Positions 9,910 through 22,066 of a stretch of DNA of 25,480 bases are shown here, piece after piece. A model generated the notes under the pieces. That model made no database searches and was not told the origin of the DNA. It saw only the letters and a list, made by a program, of their open reading frames with translations. The stretch spans positions 1 to 25,480 of IMG/VR virus record IMGVR_UViG_3300022602_002686; one strand, written 5' to 3'. Both the position numbers and the translations under genes were made by a program. Source of the stretch: a virus. Numbering within the stretch: the stretch's first letter is position 1; every line of letters begins with the position of its first letter.

Positions 9910-11097
9910 TTAATTATAATATTTTAACACACTTTCGTCGAGGTGTATTTTAATTATTTTTTTAAAATCTTCCTTCGAATTTGCCTTTGGGGCGCATATA
10001 CCACATCCACAATTAATCTTTGGACATTGTATAACCGGTACAGTTTTTGTTTCTAACTGATTTTTAAATTTTTCTAATATTTGATCTGCCTCGTCAATAG
10101 AGCCAATTGAGCCAACAGCATTAGTTTCAGGATTAACCATGCAACTAGTGTTATGATAAATTAATCCCGAATGTTGTTTAACAAACAAAAAATACCAATT
10201 GACACTACAGTACCAGTTACGAAATTGCGTAATAGGCACGTGAGAAACGGGATTACGTCTATTTGAATTAATGCACAATGCTTTTTCGCTACAGCATGGA
10301 TACCCTGCACTAGAAACAATAAACTTATCATTGACTGTAGTCATGTCCTGCAGTTTAATTGTGTTTATAGATTTTTTATTGTTTTCATTCCAATAATTAG
10401 CTATAAATTCAGATTGTTCTTTAGTATAAGAATGAAACTTTGCTCCGTCTTTATCTTTCCAGTCCGTTTCGATACCATGCTTTATTGTAACCCCAATTGG
10501 TTTTATTAAAGTTTTAATGCCGTCTTGATTAAACCTTTCAGCTAAATCTTGACATTCTTTAAATTTAAGTGGGTCGGAATGAGCTAATAATCTAACCTCA
10601 AATGATTTGTTATGTTTTTTTAACAAATAGATAGTTTCAAGTGTCATTGCCTTTTGCTTAGGCAATGATTCTGTGTGATAACTAACAGTCCAATATTGTA
10701 TTATAGGCAAACATTTTTCTAATACAGTTTTGCCTACAACACCATTAGTTATAACGTATGTAGTCAACTTCCATTTATCCTTATACGTAGTTTCGTATAA
10801 CTCGGACATATACTCAAGTATTTCTTGAATGTCTGGGTGTATTAGTGTTTCACCACCTAACAAATTTAGTGTAACAAATTTTTCGTAAGGTTTCCTGACG
10901 GACATAACAAGATCTGCATATTTAAATGCAAAATCAATGCCTTTTTTGCAACTGTTTATATCGGGGTGCTTAGTAGTGTTATCGTGAGCACCACAATACG
11001 AGCAATCAAGATTACAAAGATAGGTTAATTCCCAATCAATAACAAATGCCGGGCGATGATTTGGGTCAAACGCCAAATCAATACTTGATATAGTCAT
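9910..11097 (-). CDS. Radical SAM protein with C-terminal cysteine clusters
   Basis: The CX3CX2C motif CNLDCSYC (C28, C32, C35) would bind the 4Fe-4S cluster that cleaves S-adenosylmethionine, and LLGGETLIHPDI (about 78-89) is the usual GGE strand. The C-terminal part has extra cysteines (YPCCSEKALC around 276, and CPKINCGCGIC near 357-367), as in SPASM/twitch proteins that bind auxiliary clusters. Length is 395 residues. The protein is the last gene of the clamp-led operon; its ATG overlaps the QueD-like stop by one base. The QueE step of 7-deazaguanine synthesis is also radical SAM, but QueE is much shorter and lacks this C-terminal region, so I do not call it QueE. The gene looks more AT-rich than its neighbours. 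Confidence 0.8.
   Translation of the reverse strand: MTISSIDLAFDPNHRPAFVIDWELTYLCNLDCSYCGAHDNTTKHPDINSCKKGIDFAFKYADLVMSVRKPYEKFVTLNLLGGETLIHPDIQEILEYMSELYETTYKDKWKLTTYVITNGVVGKTVLEKCLPIIQYWTVSYHTESLPKQKAMTLETIYLLKKHNKSFEVRLLAHSDPLKFKECQDLAERFNQDGIKTLIKPIGVTIKHGIETDWKDKDGAKFHSYTKEQSEFIANYWNENNKKSINTIKLQDMTTVNDKFIVSSAGYPCCSEKALCINSNRRNPVSHVPITQFRNWYCSVNWYFLFVKQHSGLIYHNTSCMVNPETNAVGSIGSIDEADQILEKFKNQLETKTVPVIQCPKINCGCGICAPKANSKEDFKKIIKIHLDESVLKYYN
9913..9941 (-). promoter_or_regulatory. Candidate sigma70-like promoter before the 9880-5057 gene group
   Basis: A perfect TATAAT lies at 9918-9913 on the minus strand, with TCGACG (4 of 6 to TTGACA) 17 bases upstream at 9941-9936, within the last codons of the radical SAM gene. 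The predicted leader to the ATG at 9880 is about 26 nt. The AT-rich setting makes a chance -10 match possible. Confidence 0.4.
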
Positions 11098-13862: not shown

Positions 13863-14472
13863 AGAACTGTGTTTGCTCGATTAATTTAAGGTCTTGTCTG
13901 AAATAGTCTTCAACTTGATTAAGGTATTTAGAGTTTTTCAATGCCTGGGTAAAAATTTCTTTAAACTGTTTTCTTATTGCATCATTATCACTTACATGTT
14001 GTTTTGCATAATTACGGTAATTATTTGGCATTCCATTTTCTGCTAAGAAGTTGCTAAAGTTTTCTCTATAGTGCTCATCAAACTTAAAGAATACGCAACG
14101 ACTTAAATCTAATCCTTCAATGAAGTATACTTGTTTCTCGGTGTGGTCGTCAAATGCAATCTTGTCGAATATTAAATCCAGTAGCTCCGTAGTAAATGAG
14201 CTAGTGGTCCAGTCCCTGTGGTACAGATACAAGTACTCGGCCATACCACTGGCCCAGCGTTCAACTGGGTCACGTAACACAACCATAGCAGTCTTGTGGT
14301 ATAGGTTATCTGTGTGGTAATTGTAAAACTCCCACTCAAAGTCTGCTAAGTTTGGCTTGGTCCACGATGTTGCATTTTTAGGAATGTTTATATACATCAA
14401 GTCAGACTCTGAGTGTGTCATGCACTCCCCAAACACGTGACCTTTTGCTCTATAGTAATCTAAAAAACTCAT
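13849..14472 (-). CDS. Sulfotransferase-family protein
   Basis: Sulfotransferases move sulfate from PAPS to a hydroxyl or amine. The 207-residue product has the 5'-phosphosulfate loop MYINIPKNATSW (26-37) and the 3'-phosphate strand/helix VVLRDPVERWASG (64-76), the two core PAPS contacts of Golgi-type and bacterial sulfotransferases. FFKFDEHY (around 130) may be a further core strand. It is shorter than most members, but both cofactor sites are present. It overlaps the radical SAM gene by 4 nt and the TGT-like gene by 14 nt. The acceptor is unknown: a glycan is the usual substrate, though the operon setting allows a modified base or pathway intermediate. Confidence 0.75.
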   Translation of the reverse strand: MSFLDYYRAKGHVFGECMTHSESDLMYINIPKNATSWTKPNLADFEWEFYNYHTDNLYHKTAMVVLRDPVERWASGMAEYLYLYHRDWTTSSFTTELLDLIFDKIAFDDHTEKQVYFIEGLDLSRCVFFKFDEHYRENFSNFLAENGMPNNYRNYAKQHVSDNDAIRKQFKEIFTQALKNSKYLNQVEDYFRQDLKLIEQTQFYGTR

Positions 14473-15476
14473 AGTAGTTGTTTTAAAAATGATCCGATAG
14501 TGATATGCGACATGGTACTGACTGCTCTTAACGAATCAATAACCTTGTTGTATTCGGGACCAGGCTTGGCCATAATATCTTGTTCAACAAAGTTATCAAA
14601 CGTACCCCAGTTTTCAATTTTGGTAATTTCACCATTAAAGCCAAACTTACTGCACATCTCAGCAAAGTTAATAATATCATTATAGTTACTAACACTCAAG
14701 CAGAACATAAGTCTTACAGTGGCACCAACAGGCTTATTGTCTGATAGCCATTGTAAGTTATCTTGCAATACGCTAAATTTACCTGGGCGTCTAACCACTT
14801 CGTATACTGCTTGACTACCAGCATCTACGCTGATTTGAAACTCTTGTATGTTTGATAATATTGGACTATCTGGTAATAACTTACGCATCAATAATCCGTT
14901 GGTAAACAGTTTAATAGTTTGATTGCTCTTAGGAGTCCAATTTAATATCAATGGTCGCATAATCAAACTAGCAAGCGGATCTCCATTGCCACTCATGGTC
15001 AAGTGCAGTGGTTTATCAAACTTGTTAATTAGTTCAACCAAGTGACTAACCATCTTGGATTTACGATCAAACTGTTCGCCCTTGGTGTGATTGATTAATT
15101 CTCTACGACAGCTGGGACAGGCTAGATTGCAACTTTCATCTATATTGATAGATAGATAGTAATGTGTAGACGTAAGATTTTGATTTAGAATCCCGCAATG
15201 CTGAACAGCACAATACTTGTAGGTACGATCAATGATTGTTTTTTGTAATTCATGTGCAATGGGATTATCCCAGACTTCACTTAAATCAGCAAAGTCCAGA
15301 ATGTTCCCTACAGTAATTGGTAAGTGTGCTTCGCATTTGCATAAGAAACAATTACCTTCTAAATCTACTGTTAATACAGTAAATGGACTATCGCAAAGAT
15401 TTCTTATGGGTTCTTTCCAATCCTGTCCCCTAGGATACAATGATAGTATGTGAGTTACAGAATCAGAAAGTTGCAT
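14469..15476 (-). CDS. Radical SAM protein with an N-terminal SPASM-like domain
   Basis: The 335-residue protein carries the cluster motif CNLACPSC (C116, C120, C123) and a GNGDPL segment (about 163-168) in place of GGE. FSVLQDNLQWLSDN and similar repeats complete a partial TIM barrel. Unusually, a SPASM-like cysteine region precedes the barrel: C28, C43, C46, C48, then VGNILDFADLSEVWDN (56-71), then C89 and C94. In normal SPASM proteins this region follows the barrel. The reaction is unknown; peptide modification is common for SPASM proteins. Translation is coupled to the sliding clamp gene (TAATG) and the sulfotransferase gene (ATGA). Confidence 0.78.
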   Translation of the reverse strand: MQLSDSVTHILSLYPRGQDWKEPIRNLCDSPFTVLTVDLEGNCFLCKCEAHLPITVGNILDFADLSEVWDNPIAHELQKTIIDRTYKYCAVQHCGILNQNLTSTHYYLSINIDESCNLACPSCRRELINHTKGEQFDRKSKMVSHLVELINKFDKPLHLTMSGNGDPLASLIMRPLILNWTPKSNQTIKLFTNGLLMRKLLPDSPILSNIQEFQISVDAGSQAVYEVVRRPGKFSVLQDNLQWLSDNKPVGATVRLMFCLSVSNYNDIINFAEMCSKFGFNGEITKIENWGTFDNFVEQDIMAKPGPEYNKVIDSLRAVSTMSHITIGSFLKQLL

Positions 15477-16240: not shown

Positions 16241-16269
16241 ATTGTAAAGTAATATTTAGATAAAGTCAA
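16241..16269 (-). promoter_or_regulatory. Sigma70-like promoter of the sliding clamp operon
   Basis: On the minus strand TTGACT (16269-16264) and TACAAT (16246-16241) are 17 bases apart, the same hexamers and spacing as the folE promoter. The -35 box overlaps the methyltransferase stop codon. The spacer contains TCTAAATA followed by TTACT, close to the late-type element near 19949 and 21215. This promoter would drive the operon from the clamp down to the radical SAM gene ending at 9910. Confidence 0.6.
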
Positions 16270-17207
16270 AGGTTGATGTGTTTTATTTCGCCCAATACCT
16301 GATGAGCTTTATTTGTTTCAAGTGTGCCAGGCTTCTTAATTTCAAGCCAGCTGATATTTGGTTCAAAGTCAAATTCTGTAACAGAATAACCAAATCTTTC
16401 GCATAGTGGTACCAACATACTTTTTGGCATGTAAGTTTGTGCAAAGTTTTCTGCCATGCCTGCACCAGCCGGAGTATCACCGTTGTTGTAACTGAACATA
16501 AAGATGCCGCCGGGACGTAGCAATTCATATGCTTGTTCGATATACTGTTTCATAGTATCCATACTAACATAATTGAAATAGCCCCAACTAAAAATAAAAT
16601 TAAACTGTCCTACAGGTAGCGCAGACAAGTCGTGATCAACAAGTGGATATTTTCTCAAACGGTTTTGATATGGTTCCGGGAATCTATCGTTGGTGCTTTC
16701 TATAAATTCTCGCTGGCGATCCATTATATATAACGGATCAGATGCAACTAAAAACTGAGTCCATTCACCATCGCGGCACCCAATTTCTAATGCAGGGTAA
16801 CGCCAATTGGTATGCAGTAAAATACGTTGTTTAACTGTCTGTTCAACATCAGCATTGATATAAATTCTACGACTATTACGAACAAAATCCACAGTCCCGT
16901 ACCGTTCTTCTAGTTCATAGTTTCCAGCAAACAGTTTCTGCGTTATTGCATCAATCTGAATGTTAATCTGTTTCAATTGAACTTCCAATTCGTTAACTGG
17001 TCGTTGAACCTGCTCAATAACAGTATCGTAGTAGGTCATTAAACTATCCACGTATTGTTTGTACTCGTCGCTTAGTACAGGAACGGTAGTTTTAATAGTT
17101 GATATGCTATTTTGTAAATCAAATAAACTTTTAACTACAGAATCTGTATTCAAGACTCTGGTTAATTTTTGTTTAAGTGTTACTAGGTCATGTAGGTGCA
17201 TTGTCAT
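16266..17207 (-). CDS. Class I SAM-dependent methyltransferase with N-terminal coiled coil
   Basis: The 313-residue product starts with a long helical region (about 1-95), including heptads around VNELEVQLKQINIQIDAI. A Rossmann methyltransferase domain follows. LEIGCRDGEW (140-149) is the SAM-binding motif I, FNFIFSWGYFNYVS is the motif II/IV region, and LLRPGGIFMFSYNN is the post-strand-4 motif. The coiled coil could mediate oligomers or bind a partner. No DNA methyltransferase (N/D)PP(Y/F) motif is visible, so small molecules, glycans or proteins are likelier substrates. It lies between the polymerase (3-nt gap) and the clamp, an unusual insertion into the replication block. Confidence 0.75.
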   Translation of the reverse strand: MTMHLHDLVTLKQKLTRVLNTDSVVKSLFDLQNSISTIKTTVPVLSDEYKQYVDSLMTYYDTVIEQVQRPVNELEVQLKQINIQIDAITQKLFAGNYELEERYGTVDFVRNSRRIYINADVEQTVKQRILLHTNWRYPALEIGCRDGEWTQFLVASDPLYIMDRQREFIESTNDRFPEPYQNRLRKYPLVDHDLSALPVGQFNFIFSWGYFNYVSMDTMKQYIEQAYELLRPGGIFMFSYNNGDTPAGAGMAENFAQTYMPKSMLVPLCERFGYSVTEFDFEPNISWLEIKKPGTLETNKAHQVLGEIKHINL

Positions 17208-17210
17208 ATT

Positions 17211-19871
17211 TTACTCGAAGCTGAATAAATCATCAAACGTTGTTTTAATATCTGTGCTTTCTGCAATCCGCCATTCCAGCACACCCAATAAGTTTTCTAC
17301 CTTTTGATCTACGATAGTTGATTCCATTAGGTTATCGTCAAACGGCAAGTCCTTAAACCACTGCGGGATATGTGTTTCATCTGTAGGATAACCTACACTA
17401 GTGTAACCAACTGGATTATCTTTGAGTTTGCACACAACAGTTTTCATGCCATCAATAATAGTGGTACTATAGTTGTCGCCGTGCGTACGCTTTAGGTTGT
17501 TCCAGTTCATTGCAGCACGAACATGTCCGGGCATGTTGGCTTTGCCTTCACGTTGCTCTGCGGCTGTGTACTTGGTCAAGTTGTTTACACGTTTAGGTGT
17601 ACCTTTTTCCCAGGCTGGTCTTTCTGCAAACTTTAATTTAAAGTCTTTGACTTTGACAATAATAGCTTCTTTCTCGGCACCTGTGAGCACATCCATAAGC
17701 AATTCACTCAGGAACTCCTGTACTATCTTAGGCGTATCACTACGCTTCAAATCAAGTCCCATTGCTTTCATTTTGCCTGGTTTACCGTGAGTATCGAGAC
17801 GATTACCTTCTATATCAAACACTAAAATGCCGTAACGCTTTTTCTTAATAAACAGACCTTTTGAAGCAATAAGTTCACGACCGCCTTTGATAATACTACC
17901 CATCTCGCGCGGACAATGACAAGCACGTTCCATGAATCCCGGGAATGAATCATTTACAGAGTCTGCAATAGTATCGTATAACTGTACACAGATTTCTCTA
18001 TTCCATTCCATGCGCCCAGATTCTACTTCCTCTTTGATTTGCGGCCAGGCTGAGAAATAGACCGAGTCCGTGTCGCCGTAGATGACTGATTTGCCAGTGT
18101 GATCGTATTCCCCGGTAATAGCTTCGTTAACGTGTGCGTCCATGTGTTTGGCAATAATGCGACCCGTAAGTGTCGTACTTTGGCCAATGCGCTGGTCAAA
18201 GAAGCGACAGCCCGGATTGAGGATCGCACCATATAGCGAGTTGAGGTTAATTTTTTTGACGAGCTGTCTTTTGTCCCAGAACGCCGTATCTTCCGGAGAT
18301 GTTGCGGCTTTCTTTTTAGCTTGCATTTCTTTACGTTCTGCATACCACCTTTCTAACAGTCCGGGAATAATTCCTTTTGTGTTATGTTTAAAAATTGTAC
18401 CATTGGCACTGAATGTCCAAGGTTGGCGACTATCAAATACCAAGCGCCATACGTCCGCGGCACTCATTATGTCGCTACTTCCGTCTTGCCAATCTATAGT
18501 AATCTCAGTACCTATTTCGCCAGCCATTACTGCTTGATACTCTAAGCTACCAAACATGTTTTCCCATGCATCAGCAAAACTTGAACCTGCATCCATCTTT
18601 TCTTTGATGTAGTGATCAGTCATAATAGGACGAAGTTGTCCTACAATGGTTTCTGGCCCCATGTTAAGGGCACGAATAGCCGAGGGATAGAGACTGTTGA
18701 TATCGATGGCACCGATGTATTCGTGCATTCCTTTTTTGGGATAAGCAACATAGGCACCTGCCGCTTGCGTGTTTCCTTGATCATCTCTTGCTCTCCTGTT
18801 GGGCACAACCAAACCTCGGCTGTGCGATTCGTTAATAATAGCTTGTTCTGTAACTGCCACAGCGCCCATAGTGGTTTGTAGCAATACAGTATTGTCATGT
18901 GCCAATTCATTGGCCAGATCTAAGAAGCGCAACTTCTTATCTAGTTTGGCCAACAGTAGGGTATCTTGTCTATTGTAGTCAATAAACTTTGAGAATTCTT
19001 TGTTGTATAGTTGATCCAGGGTGCCTTCATATGCCAACTTAGATCCAACTTCTTCGTACTCGCCGATAGCATCTAAACTATAGCTATGACGTTCTTCGTA
19101 TGTGTACTTGCGGTACAGTTGCATATAGTCCAAATGCACACGGCCCAGCAGGTCAAATGTTAATTGTTCTGCACCAAAGCGTTCAAACATACGTTGCTTA
19201 GGTAACTGACCCCACAAGCATAGTCTACGAGTATCATCCTTGCTCAAGACCTTGGTAATACGCATAGTGGTATAGGGAATATCAAAGCCCTCTGAGTTCC
19301 AACCTGATAGGATATCTGCATCTTGAATTACATCTAAGAACGTATCGAGCATGTCTGCTTCACGTTCAAATAAGAAACAGTTGTCGTATGTATCACAGAT
19401 CTCCTGTGCAGATTCCCAACTATAACTCTTAGGAGGCACAACCAGGGTAACCATCTTATCCATCCAGTCCAAATAGATTGATATACTGGTAATTGGATTA
19501 AATGGATCTTCGGGCTTACTATAACCTCTAAGTGGATCAAAGTCCACCTCAATATCGAAAAAGGCTGTTTGTAGTTTTGGTGATGTGGCACCTAGGTAGT
19601 TTTCTTCTAAGCATCGGAAGATGGGATTAATATCCGACTCCCATAACTTCTTACCTGAGTTGATTCGTTGTTCCTTATGGAACTCCTTGCCATTGCGTGT
19701 GCTAAAACGTGACACGGGTGTGTCGTAGATAGTGCGGAACTTGCCGCGGGGGTCATCGTAGTAAAAAACATAGTTAGCAGGATACTCTTTGTATACACGC
19801 TCACCATCAATACGTTCTACTACATGGATGCGATCTTTATCGCGATCAAACAATGCGTCAATATATGACAT
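17211..19871 (-). CDS. 43: Family B DNA polymerase, gp43-like
   Basis: The 886-residue length is close to T4 gp43. Exonuclease motifs are FFDIEVDF (D106, E108), GWNSEGFDIPY (190-200) and YNRQD (299-303). Polymerase motifs are DINSLYPS (390-397), KKINLNSLYGA (539-549) and YGDTDS (598-603), followed by KKRYG in the thumb. All catalytic residues are present, so it should both synthesise and proofread. The C-terminus ends TTFDDLFSFE, a Phe-containing tail like the gp43 clamp-binding peptide. GGAG lies about 10 nt before the ATG. Expression likely uses the TTGACA/TATACT promoter at 19958-19986, and the leader hairpin at 19887-19906 may allow autoregulation as in T4. Confidence 0.96.
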   Translation of the reverse strand: MSYIDALFDRDKDRIHVVERIDGERVYKEYPANYVFYYDDPRGKFRTIYDTPVSRFSTRNGKEFHKEQRINSGKKLWESDINPIFRCLEENYLGATSPKLQTAFFDIEVDFDPLRGYSKPEDPFNPITSISIYLDWMDKMVTLVVPPKSYSWESAQEICDTYDNCFLFEREADMLDTFLDVIQDADILSGWNSEGFDIPYTTMRITKVLSKDDTRRLCLWGQLPKQRMFERFGAEQLTFDLLGRVHLDYMQLYRKYTYEERHSYSLDAIGEYEEVGSKLAYEGTLDQLYNKEFSKFIDYNRQDTLLLAKLDKKLRFLDLANELAHDNTVLLQTTMGAVAVTEQAIINESHSRGLVVPNRRARDDQGNTQAAGAYVAYPKKGMHEYIGAIDINSLYPSAIRALNMGPETIVGQLRPIMTDHYIKEKMDAGSSFADAWENMFGSLEYQAVMAGEIGTEITIDWQDGSSDIMSAADVWRLVFDSRQPWTFSANGTIFKHNTKGIIPGLLERWYAERKEMQAKKKAATSPEDTAFWDKRQLVKKINLNSLYGAILNPGCRFFDQRIGQSTTLTGRIIAKHMDAHVNEAITGEYDHTGKSVIYGDTDSVYFSAWPQIKEEVESGRMEWNREICVQLYDTIADSVNDSFPGFMERACHCPREMGSIIKGGRELIASKGLFIKKKRYGILVFDIEGNRLDTHGKPGKMKAMGLDLKRSDTPKIVQEFLSELLMDVLTGAEKEAIIVKVKDFKLKFAERPAWEKGTPKRVNNLTKYTAAEQREGKANMPGHVRAAMNWNNLKRTHGDNYSTTIIDGMKTVVCKLKDNPVGYTSVGYPTDETHIPQWFKDLPFDDNLMESTIVDQKVENLLGVLEWRIAESTDIKTTFDDLFSFE

Positions 19872-19886
19872 TTACTCTCCAATTTT

Positions 19887-19906
19887 GTGTCGCTTCGAGC
19901 CGACAC
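19887..19906 (-). promoter_or_regulatory. Leader hairpin upstream of the polymerase gene, possible gp43 translational operator
   Basis: GTGTCG pairs with CGACAC (6 bp) around an 8-nt loop. The hairpin ends 6 nt before the GGAG ribosome binding site of the polymerase gene. T4 gp43 represses its own translation by binding a short hairpin with an 8-nt loop next to its ribosome binding site. Size and position match, but the loop sequence (GCTCGAAG) differs from T4's. Confidence 0.45.
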
Positions 19907-19937
19907 TACTCTGCTTGTCCGTAAAGTGGACGACTCT

Positions 19938-19980
19938 TACTAATATTTACTCTTGTAAGTATAACAGTTAAATATTAGTA
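19938..19980. promoter_or_regulatory. Inverted repeat made of two divergent late-type elements
   Basis: Arms 19938-19949 and 19969-19980 are perfect 12-base inverted copies with a 19-base centre. Each arm reads TAAATATTAGTA outward. The plus-strand arm runs into the ATG of the gene at 19980; the minus-strand arm points to the polymerase. The same TAAATATTAGT occurs at 21215-21225 before the HNH gene, so promoter elements are a better explanation than an RNA hairpin. Confidence 0.5.
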
Positions 19981-19986
19981 TGTCAA
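19958..19986 (-). promoter_or_regulatory. Near-consensus sigma70 promoter of the DNA polymerase gene
   Basis: On the minus strand a perfect TTGACA (19986-19981) is followed after 17 bases by TATACT (19963-19958). Transcription would start near 19951, giving an ~80-nt leader that includes the hairpin at 19887-19906. The -35 box lies in the first codons of the divergent plus-strand gene. Confidence 0.65.
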
Positions 19987-21283: not shown

Positions 21284-22066
21284 ATGATATTTATCAACAA
21301 CAAATATACCAAATTCTATTATAGCATCATTTCTAACGCACAATCAAGAGTTTTATCAAAAGAAGTATACACAGAACGTCACCATATTATACCAAAAAGT
21401 TTAGGTGGCAGTAATTCAAAAAATAATTTAGTTAAACTAACTGCTCGAGAACATTTTATATGTCATTTACTCCTTACTAAAATGACCAAAGGCGAAAATA
21501 AAATGAAAATGGCAAAGGCGGCATTTATGTTTGCTACAACGTCGAATAATCAACTCCGTTATAAATTAAACAGCCATTGGTATGAATCTCTGAGATTAAA
21601 ATCATCCGATGCAAGACGTAACGTTCCGTCGCCTTTAAAAGGTATAAAAATAACAGATGCCGAGAGATTAGATCAAATAAAACAATCTATTAAAGAACGA
21701 GAGTTAAAGTATAGCACTGGACAACTATCCCGTGGTAATATGGGAAAGTATGAACGTAGCAAAGAATATATAGAATATCTTCGCGTAGATGTTAAAAATA
21801 GAAAAGGATTCTCAACTAAAGGGCAATCGGCTGAAGCAAGAGAACGGGCCGCTAAAAATATATCAATTGCTAGAAAAGGTCAACCTGCTCACAATAAAGG
21901 TACAGCCCCATCTCGGGTTAGTTGTTTATGTTGTAAGGTAGAAGTTGATATCAGAAACTTTGCTCGATATCACAAGGAATGTAAAACCGCTTTTTCCAAA
22001 TACATTCCGGAGCACGACTTCCATATATTCGAAGGGCAGCGGCGAGCCCATTCACACCGTAATTAA
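21284..22066 (+). CDS. Free-standing HNH endonuclease (probable homing endonuclease)
   Basis: The 260-residue product has an N-terminal HNH domain: ERHHIIPKSLGGSNSKNNLV (31-50) with catalytic His pair H33/H34 and Asn, then LTAREHFICHLLL (52-64) with H57 and H61. The middle has NUMOD3-like short DNA-binding segments (RKGFSTKG, RKGQPAHNKG). The C-terminus has CLCCKVEVDIRNFARYHKEC, a C-x2-C...H-x3-C zinc-finger pattern. This layout is typical of phage homing endonucleases that cut a related phage's genome and spread by repair. It is plus-strand, unlike its neighbours, with its own AAGGA site and late-type promoter motif, as expected for an inserted mobile gene. Confidence 0.85.
   Translation: MIFINNKYTKFYYSIISNAQSRVLSKEVYTERHHIIPKSLGGSNSKNNLVKLTAREHFICHLLLTKMTKGENKMKMAKAAFMFATTSNNQLRYKLNSHWYESLRLKSSDARRNVPSPLKGIKITDAERLDQIKQSIKERELKYSTGQLSRGNMGKYERSKEYIEYLRVDVKNRKGFSTKGQSAEARERAAKNISIARKGQPAHNKGTAPSRVSCLCCKVEVDIRNFARYHKECKTAFSKYIPEHDFHIFEGQRRAHSHRN

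Follow-up and report, generated by a model that had tools for sequence, protein, structure and literature searches.

A two-hairpin, pseudoknotted RNA element in the leader of gp43-type DNA polymerase genes, a proposed translational operator

According to a review (PMC3014915), phage T4 DNA polymerase gp43 represses its own translation at a hairpin operator beside the ribosome-binding site. This was a founding case of an enzyme repressing its own mRNA and the target of the first RNA SELEX. In the same review, some T4 relatives do not autoregulate, the gp43-RNA complex is described as unsolved, and no evidence of a pseudoknot is reported for gene 43. According to a second source (PMC535899), gp43 that is bound to DNA cannot bind its RNA and vice versa, which would couple supply to demand. 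As read from the genomes, the T4 hairpin (AGCCU-AAUAACUC-GGGCU) and the RB69 hairpin (AGAC-AAUAACUC-GUCU) both have an 8-nt loop and lie just before the Shine-Dalgarno sequence.

Gene 32 of T4, T2 and RB69, a phage replication gene for a single-stranded DNA-binding protein, has a leader pseudoknot as its autogenous repression site (PMC535899 and PMC3014915). That pseudoknot is ~67 nt upstream and is the starting point of cooperative binding along UUAA(A) repeats. It might be the sole viral pseudoknot for translational autoregulation, according to the review (PMC3014915). Autogenous translational control through a leader pseudoknot is also mentioned there for E. coli rpsO, encoding ribosomal protein S15 (PMC3014915).

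The polymerase gene and its leader

The window, i.e. the whole 25,480-nucleotide stretch of viral DNA analysed, contained the following features.

17211..19871, minus strand: gp43-type family B DNA polymerase gene, 886 aa
19877..19880, minus strand: Shine-Dalgarno GGAG, from the sequence

Pfam DNA_pol_B and an exonuclease domain were found in the polymerase by a domain search, and the protein matched PHROG 262 (E 2.5e-189). Its top PDB match was chain 1clq_A (E 4e-62), which we take to be RB69 gp43; the parallel with T4 gp43 drawn in the earlier note was supported in that the gene is of T4/RB69 gp43 type. The nearest long ORF upstream was on the opposite strand (19980+), so the polymerase was probably transcribed on its own. 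Radical-SAM/SPASM-like proteins, an AMP-binding enzyme and a methyltransferase were encoded near the polymerase (14469-15476, minus; 9910-11097, minus; 1748-2833, plus; 16266-17207, minus), an unusual content for a phage replication region, and an HNH homing endonuclease-like gene (PHROG 655) lay at 21284-22066 on the plus strand.

From 19938, the minus-strand leader read AAGAGTC GTCC ACTTTAC GGAC AAGCAGAGTA GTGTCG GCTCGAAG CGACAC AAAATT GGAG AGTAA ATG. Positions 19906-19887 (GTGTCG GCTCGAAG CGACAC) gave an uninterrupted stem of 6 bp closing an 8-nt loop, followed by 6 nt, GGAG (19880-19877), 5 nt and the ATG (19871-19869). This hairpin (hairpin 2) was thus located exactly where the earlier note had put it, at 19887-19906 on the minus strand.

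As a lone sequence, hairpin 2 was at chance level. Its fold energy of -8.0 kcal/mol (z -2.6) was equalled by 2 of 200 shuffles, and 14 Watson-Crick hairpins with 6 bp and an 8-nt loop were counted across the window; among 25 window leaders of 60 nt examined, a 6-bp hairpin occurred in that of the polymerase only. The whole-leader fold energy was ordinary (z -0.5 for 99 nt, -0.8 for 70 nt), and the minimum-free-energy fold of the 99-nt leader favoured a different pairing. Single-sequence folding, with its ordinary z-scores, was dropped as a test and covariation was used to decide instead. The 14 hairpins of equal size and the ordinary leader energies would suit a functionless chance hairpin beside the ribosome-binding site, a reading which we now consider hardly credible, as it was refuted by the covariation in relatives.

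Covariation of two hairpins and a pseudoknot

Eighty viral loci with polymerases 80-100% identical were fetched, and hairpin 2 was found directly upstream of the polymerase in 68 of them, with differing stem sequences. Fifty-two distinct leaders out of those 68 were aligned on sequence alone (alignment A1). RNAalifold predicted two hairpins with 10 pairs, each of which had two-sided changes, as at one hairpin-2 pair (AU in 25 leaders, CG in 12, GC in 11 and UA in 2). In these 52 leaders, 97.7% of 512 cells were paired, vs 78.0% after shuffling (0 of 500 shuffles reached the observed value), and 118 cells were two-sided compensatory, vs 39.2. The covariation score was 0.646, vs 0.277 when shuffled and 0.013-0.094 when the structure was slid by 1-3 columns, where only 22-46% of the cells paired. 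These results argue against a chance hairpin and indicate that selection has kept the hairpin before the polymerase gene as a genuine RNA structure; hairpin 2 rises above chance because it is conserved and covarying in relatives. An alignment of related leaders for compensatory stem changes had been proposed in the earlier note, and such changes were present at all 10 pairs; the outcome named there as refuting, a stem without covariation or conservation in relatives, did not occur. The reading in that note was supported in part and was incomplete, since the hairpin is one part of a two-hairpin, pseudoknotted element.

19887..19906, minus strand: hairpin 2, 6-bp stem with the 8-nt loop GCUCGAAG at 19900-19893; 6/6 pairs with two-sided changes, 96.4% of cells paired
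19897..19900, minus strand: 3' strand of pairing S1b (GCUC), the 5' half of the hairpin-2 loop; from covariation
19908..19911, minus strand: 5' strand of pairing S1b (GAGU), partner of hairpin-2 loop nt 1-4 (GCUC); from covariation
19917..19931, minus strand: hairpin 1, GUCC / GGAC with the 7-nt loop ACUUUAC; 4/4 pairs with two-sided changes, 99.5% of cells paired, 52 leaders

Comparison of the leaders showed an element of ~55 nt, with the 4-bp hairpin 1 at its upstream end, followed by a conserved linker whose last bases are [AG]G[UC] and then by hairpin 2 with a pseudoknotted loop. The hairpin-2 loop conserved GC...AA bases and had the form [GA]C[UC]nnAA[AGU] in relatives, being 8 nt long in 80 of 81 distinct parsed variants; the parser required [GA]C[UC]nn(n)AA[AGU] and admitted 8 or 9 nt only, so that the loop form was partly built in. 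Many loci were the same contig repeated, hence counts are given as distinct variants. At one locus (L068, 1041-1097, identical to L171), the hairpin-2 stem had just 3 bp and its 3' strand UGG entered GGAG, so the Shine-Dalgarno sequence itself belonged to the fold. The window had no match in Rfam 15 at the gathering cut-off; in a search to E 10, the best sub-threshold hits (E 0.37 and 2.9) were both on the opposite strand.

In the window, GAGU (19911-19908) can pair with GCUC (19900-19897), and in relatives the conserved linker GAG[UC] before hairpin 2 complements the loop start GCUC. The three loop-proximal pairs of S1b formed in all 81 distinct hairpin-2 variants (82 parsed minus one false parse, L241; five linker offsets tried). 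GCC loops occurred with GG[UC] in 12/12 cases, GCU with AG[UC] in 67/67 and ACU with AGU in 2/2, and in a subset with short stems (19 sequences, of which 17 were distinct) the pair that covaries was GC in 9 and AU in 8. On the polymerase tree, for which the [AG]G[UC] triplet closest to the stem on its outer side was used, loop and linker agreed in 144 of 144 polymerase-distinct rows with 7 changes each; these rows exclude eight model-matched loci missed by the parser (L004, L038, L055, L066, L212, L224, L245 and L303). Agreement held in 6/6 independent pairs on supported branches (sign test, p 0.031). A fourth pair formed occasionally (GAGY/GCUC, UAGC/GCUA, UGGC/GCCA) and was broken in most GCUA loops among the 81 variants, often by G.A or another mismatch, which weakens the reading as a pseudoknot operator discussed below.

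In the S1b topology, S1 has 3-4 bp, the loop that crosses the 3-7-bp stem has 1-3 nt, the helices abut with zero nt between them, and loop 3 is A-rich with 4-5 nt; this is the classical H-type pseudoknot geometry. Covariation thus showed that the first three bases of the hairpin-2 loop pair with the upstream RGY triplet in an H-type pseudoknot, whose end is separated from the Shine-Dalgarno sequence by 0-6 nt.

A second pairing (S1a), of the hairpin-1 loop with the strand preceding it, is retained as possible.

19933..19937, minus strand: putative 5' strand of S1a (AGAGU), partner of the hairpin-1 loop; from covariation in relatives
19958..19986, minus strand: sigma70-type promoter-like site TTGACA-17-TATACT, 11/12 matches, TG before the -10; from a consensus scan

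S1a pairing was seen in part of the relatives (e.g. AGUC/GACU, UGUC/GACA, UGGUC/GACCA, AUAGUC/GACUAU, AUUGUC/GACAAU and UAUAGU/ACUAUA). In 30 aligned leaders with a 9-nt hairpin-1 loop, the variable pair 7-20 was UA in 14, AU in 13, and GC, GU and another combination in one each; on the tree, 30/31 of this group agreed, with 4-5/5 independent pairs. Over all 107 hairpin-1 variants the pairing score was 3.34 vs 2.80 when permuted, a value reached by none of 1000 permutations. Outside the 9-nt-loop group the signal was weaker (2 of 1000 permutations equalled it), and S1a was lost in the 'AAC' group.

The consensus scan of the window gave 3 sigma70 sites vs 1.7 expected. The 45 nt preceding hairpin 1 contained a box resembling a -10 in 89 of 126 distinct leaders, vs 10 of 124 control stretches, and in many relatives such a box was 7-10 nt before hairpin 1, so that the S1a strand may there be promoter and not RNA. 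In the window it would be transcribed, since the predicted promoter is farther upstream. A TAAATA box, resembling a T4 late promoter, occurred 10 nt before hairpin 1 in 18 of the 31 leaders of the 9-nt-loop group (e.g. L110, L122 and L181), and leaders outside this group mostly had sigma70-like -10 boxes; the promoter class seems to switch together with the leader type.

Distribution of the element and its link to the polymerase gene

A covariance model of the two-hairpin element (R1) matched the window and 74 of the 80 polymerase loci, the other six being L058, L059, L073, L074, L076 and L077. Using other polymerases as queries brought 152, 65 and 47 further loci, among which many contigs recurred. 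R1 matched 54/79, 59/73, 63/72 and 29/47 sources in the further sets, a 30th match in the last being weak. The set of 72 included seven named jumbo phages (Phosso, Atu_ph07, SCTP-2, PA5oct, Vibrio 2.275.O, RaK2 and XacN1), with polymerases 32-51% identical, none of which matched R1; five of the seven were covered by the tree rows. No relative was confirmed in bacterial and archaeal genome contigs. The carriers are a group of uncultivated, probably jumbo phages.

The element was present with 152 of 194 distinct polymerases, with 5 changes on the tree, and absent from 42 (a list compiled by hand), which evidently manage without it. In 24 of 38 distinct leaders of element-less polymerases (L074, L119, L126, L216, L234, L312 and others), a -10-like hexamer lay 3-8 nt before the ATG and the same scan found no Shine-Dalgarno motif, as if these mRNAs were leaderless. 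Co-evolution of polymerase and element was also considered. Residues 405-406 (GP vs AQ, in the SLYPS...NMGPET stretch) were the sole pass of the filter and were rejected as shared descent, having three starred independent pairs on the tree and mostly no change; no polymerase residue tracked the element beyond shared descent on the polymerase tree.

Viral contigs were scanned with two degenerate DNA patterns, which picked out 69 distinct loci. The polymerase was directly downstream in 52 and after 74-181 nt in 15, and in two the contig ended inside a short intervening ORF; none of the 69 had a non-polymerase gene downstream. As the patterns derive from polymerase leaders, divergent copies elsewhere could be missed. 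Among ten long records (51-374 kb), nine had a single strong copy and one (that of L076) had none. These results showed that the element is tied to the polymerase transcription unit, with no other gene found in these scans.

This dedication bears on whether polymerase output is set by some other factor that reads the leader, be it a phage regulator of the RegA kind, an RNA-binding protein of the host or a small molecule (e.g. a nucleotide). Compact pseudoknots with conserved unpaired bases are usual in both protein-binding and ligand-binding leaders, which would suit such a factor, and the lack of an Rfam family match means that no known ligand can be read from the element. If a general regulator or nucleotide sensor were involved, the element should precede at least two genes, and neither the long records nor the pattern scans gave such a case; we regard this explanation as quite unlikely.

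At some loci (L051-L054 and L065) a Cys-containing ORF of ~50-60 aa lay between element and polymerase. The stop codon of the last intervening ORF overlapped the start codon of the polymerase, and the element thereby kept its place at whichever ribosome-binding site comes first in the unit. The Cys-containing ORF (L051 4841-5001, L052, L053, L054, L065 and L413) starts with MSNRNYFEDED... or MSNRTWFEEPGEP... and is a candidate partner or coupling device. At one further locus (L079, 1569-2661), two larger ORFs, perhaps sulfotransferase-like, were inserted, each starting with an SPGRTG motif.

All 91 distinct leaders with direct linkage had a Shine-Dalgarno-type motif after hairpin 2; it lay 0-6 nt past the stem in 87, and in the other four it shared 1-2 nt with the stem. 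Its position outside hairpin 2 in those 87 would fit a cis-acting structure serving mainly mRNA stability or translation efficiency with no trans-acting repressor, in which a 5'-terminal hairpin counters 5'-end-dependent decay and the structure keeps the Shine-Dalgarno region open; hairpin 1, which follows a -10-like box by 7-10 nt in many relatives, may indeed be the very 5' end of the mRNA. The conserved loop bases GC...AA and the pseudoknot exceed the needs of a generic stabiliser, and one gene only uses the element though any phage mRNA could profit, which makes this alternative unlikely in our view.

A proposed operator of polymerase translation

The element resembled the gene 43 operator of T4, RB69 and RB49 in its homologous polymerase, its 8-nt-loop hairpin at the ribosome-binding site and its dedication to the polymerase gene. 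The earlier note had allowed for a changed loop sequence, and this was so: the loop was GCUCnAAG-type instead of AAUAACUC as in T4 and RB69, and the UAAC/UAAA bases of the T4, RB69 and RB49 loops were not found in loops of the element. It further differed in having a second, upstream hairpin, where T4 and RB69 have a plain hairpin, and in pairing the 5' half of its loop upstream as a pseudoknot; R1 had no match in T4 or RB69. The element would work like the gene 43 operator and is not filed as a T4-type member, since the loop differs and binding is putative.

The gene 32 operator is like it in topology, a leader pseudoknot (here supported by the S1b covariation), and not in sequence. The gene differs, being the polymerase here in 67 of 69 loci (the other two cut by the contig end), and there is no room for a UUAA(A)-type tract because the pseudoknot ends so close to the Shine-Dalgarno sequence. 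The predicted fold class is therefore that of the gene 32 operator, but on another gene. The resemblance to rpsO, a cellular ribosomal-protein gene, is in logic only. No description of this leader element was found in a literature search mostly outside the subscription literature.

We consider it rather likely that the leader element is a translational operator of the gp43-type polymerase, probably autogenous, in pseudoknot form. Most likely, the folded element would let the polymerase, or another binder, shut off further polymerase production. Autogenous repression is the best guess because the gene is homologous to gene 43, the position and loop size are those of its operator, and the element serves one gene. 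When free polymerase exceeds DNA primer-termini, it would bind the pseudoknot, with the 8-nt loop and the joined helices as its probable recognition features, and would cover the ribosome-binding site, blocking 30S entry; when it is busy on DNA, the leader would open and translation resume. Hairpin 1 may enlarge the binding surface or shield the mRNA 5' end. Where a small ORF intervenes, the operator could act by translational coupling, the polymerase start overlapping the ORF stop.

Conservation alone is not specific to such an operator, since any dedicated cis-acting RNA of the polymerase gene, be it a stability element or a target of another binder, would be conserved in the same way. The autogenous reading is weakened by the lack of a model match in T4, RB69 and the seven named jumbo phages, by the 42 distinct polymerases lacking the element, and by the finding that no polymerase residue tracks it beyond shared descent.

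A more elaborate form of the operator, which we hold to be doubtful, would consist of tandem H-type pseudoknots of one design for autocontrol of replicative polymerase translation, with promoter-dependent operator folds that change by infection time. If this were true, transcripts from near promoters would be without the 5' strand of the first pseudoknot and those from farther upstream would have it; the mRNAs of one gene would carry differently folded operators, because the promoter boxes lie at varied distances before hairpin 1.

A dedicated leader structure with an 8-nt loop is thus conserved, at the place where T4 has its hairpin, in a gp43-type gene distant from that of T4, but as a covarying pseudoknot. 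About a hundred natural variants would provide a ready compensatory set for testing how a replicative polymerase could recognise RNA, and they may help to tell an ancient origin of gp43 autoregulation from repeated invention.
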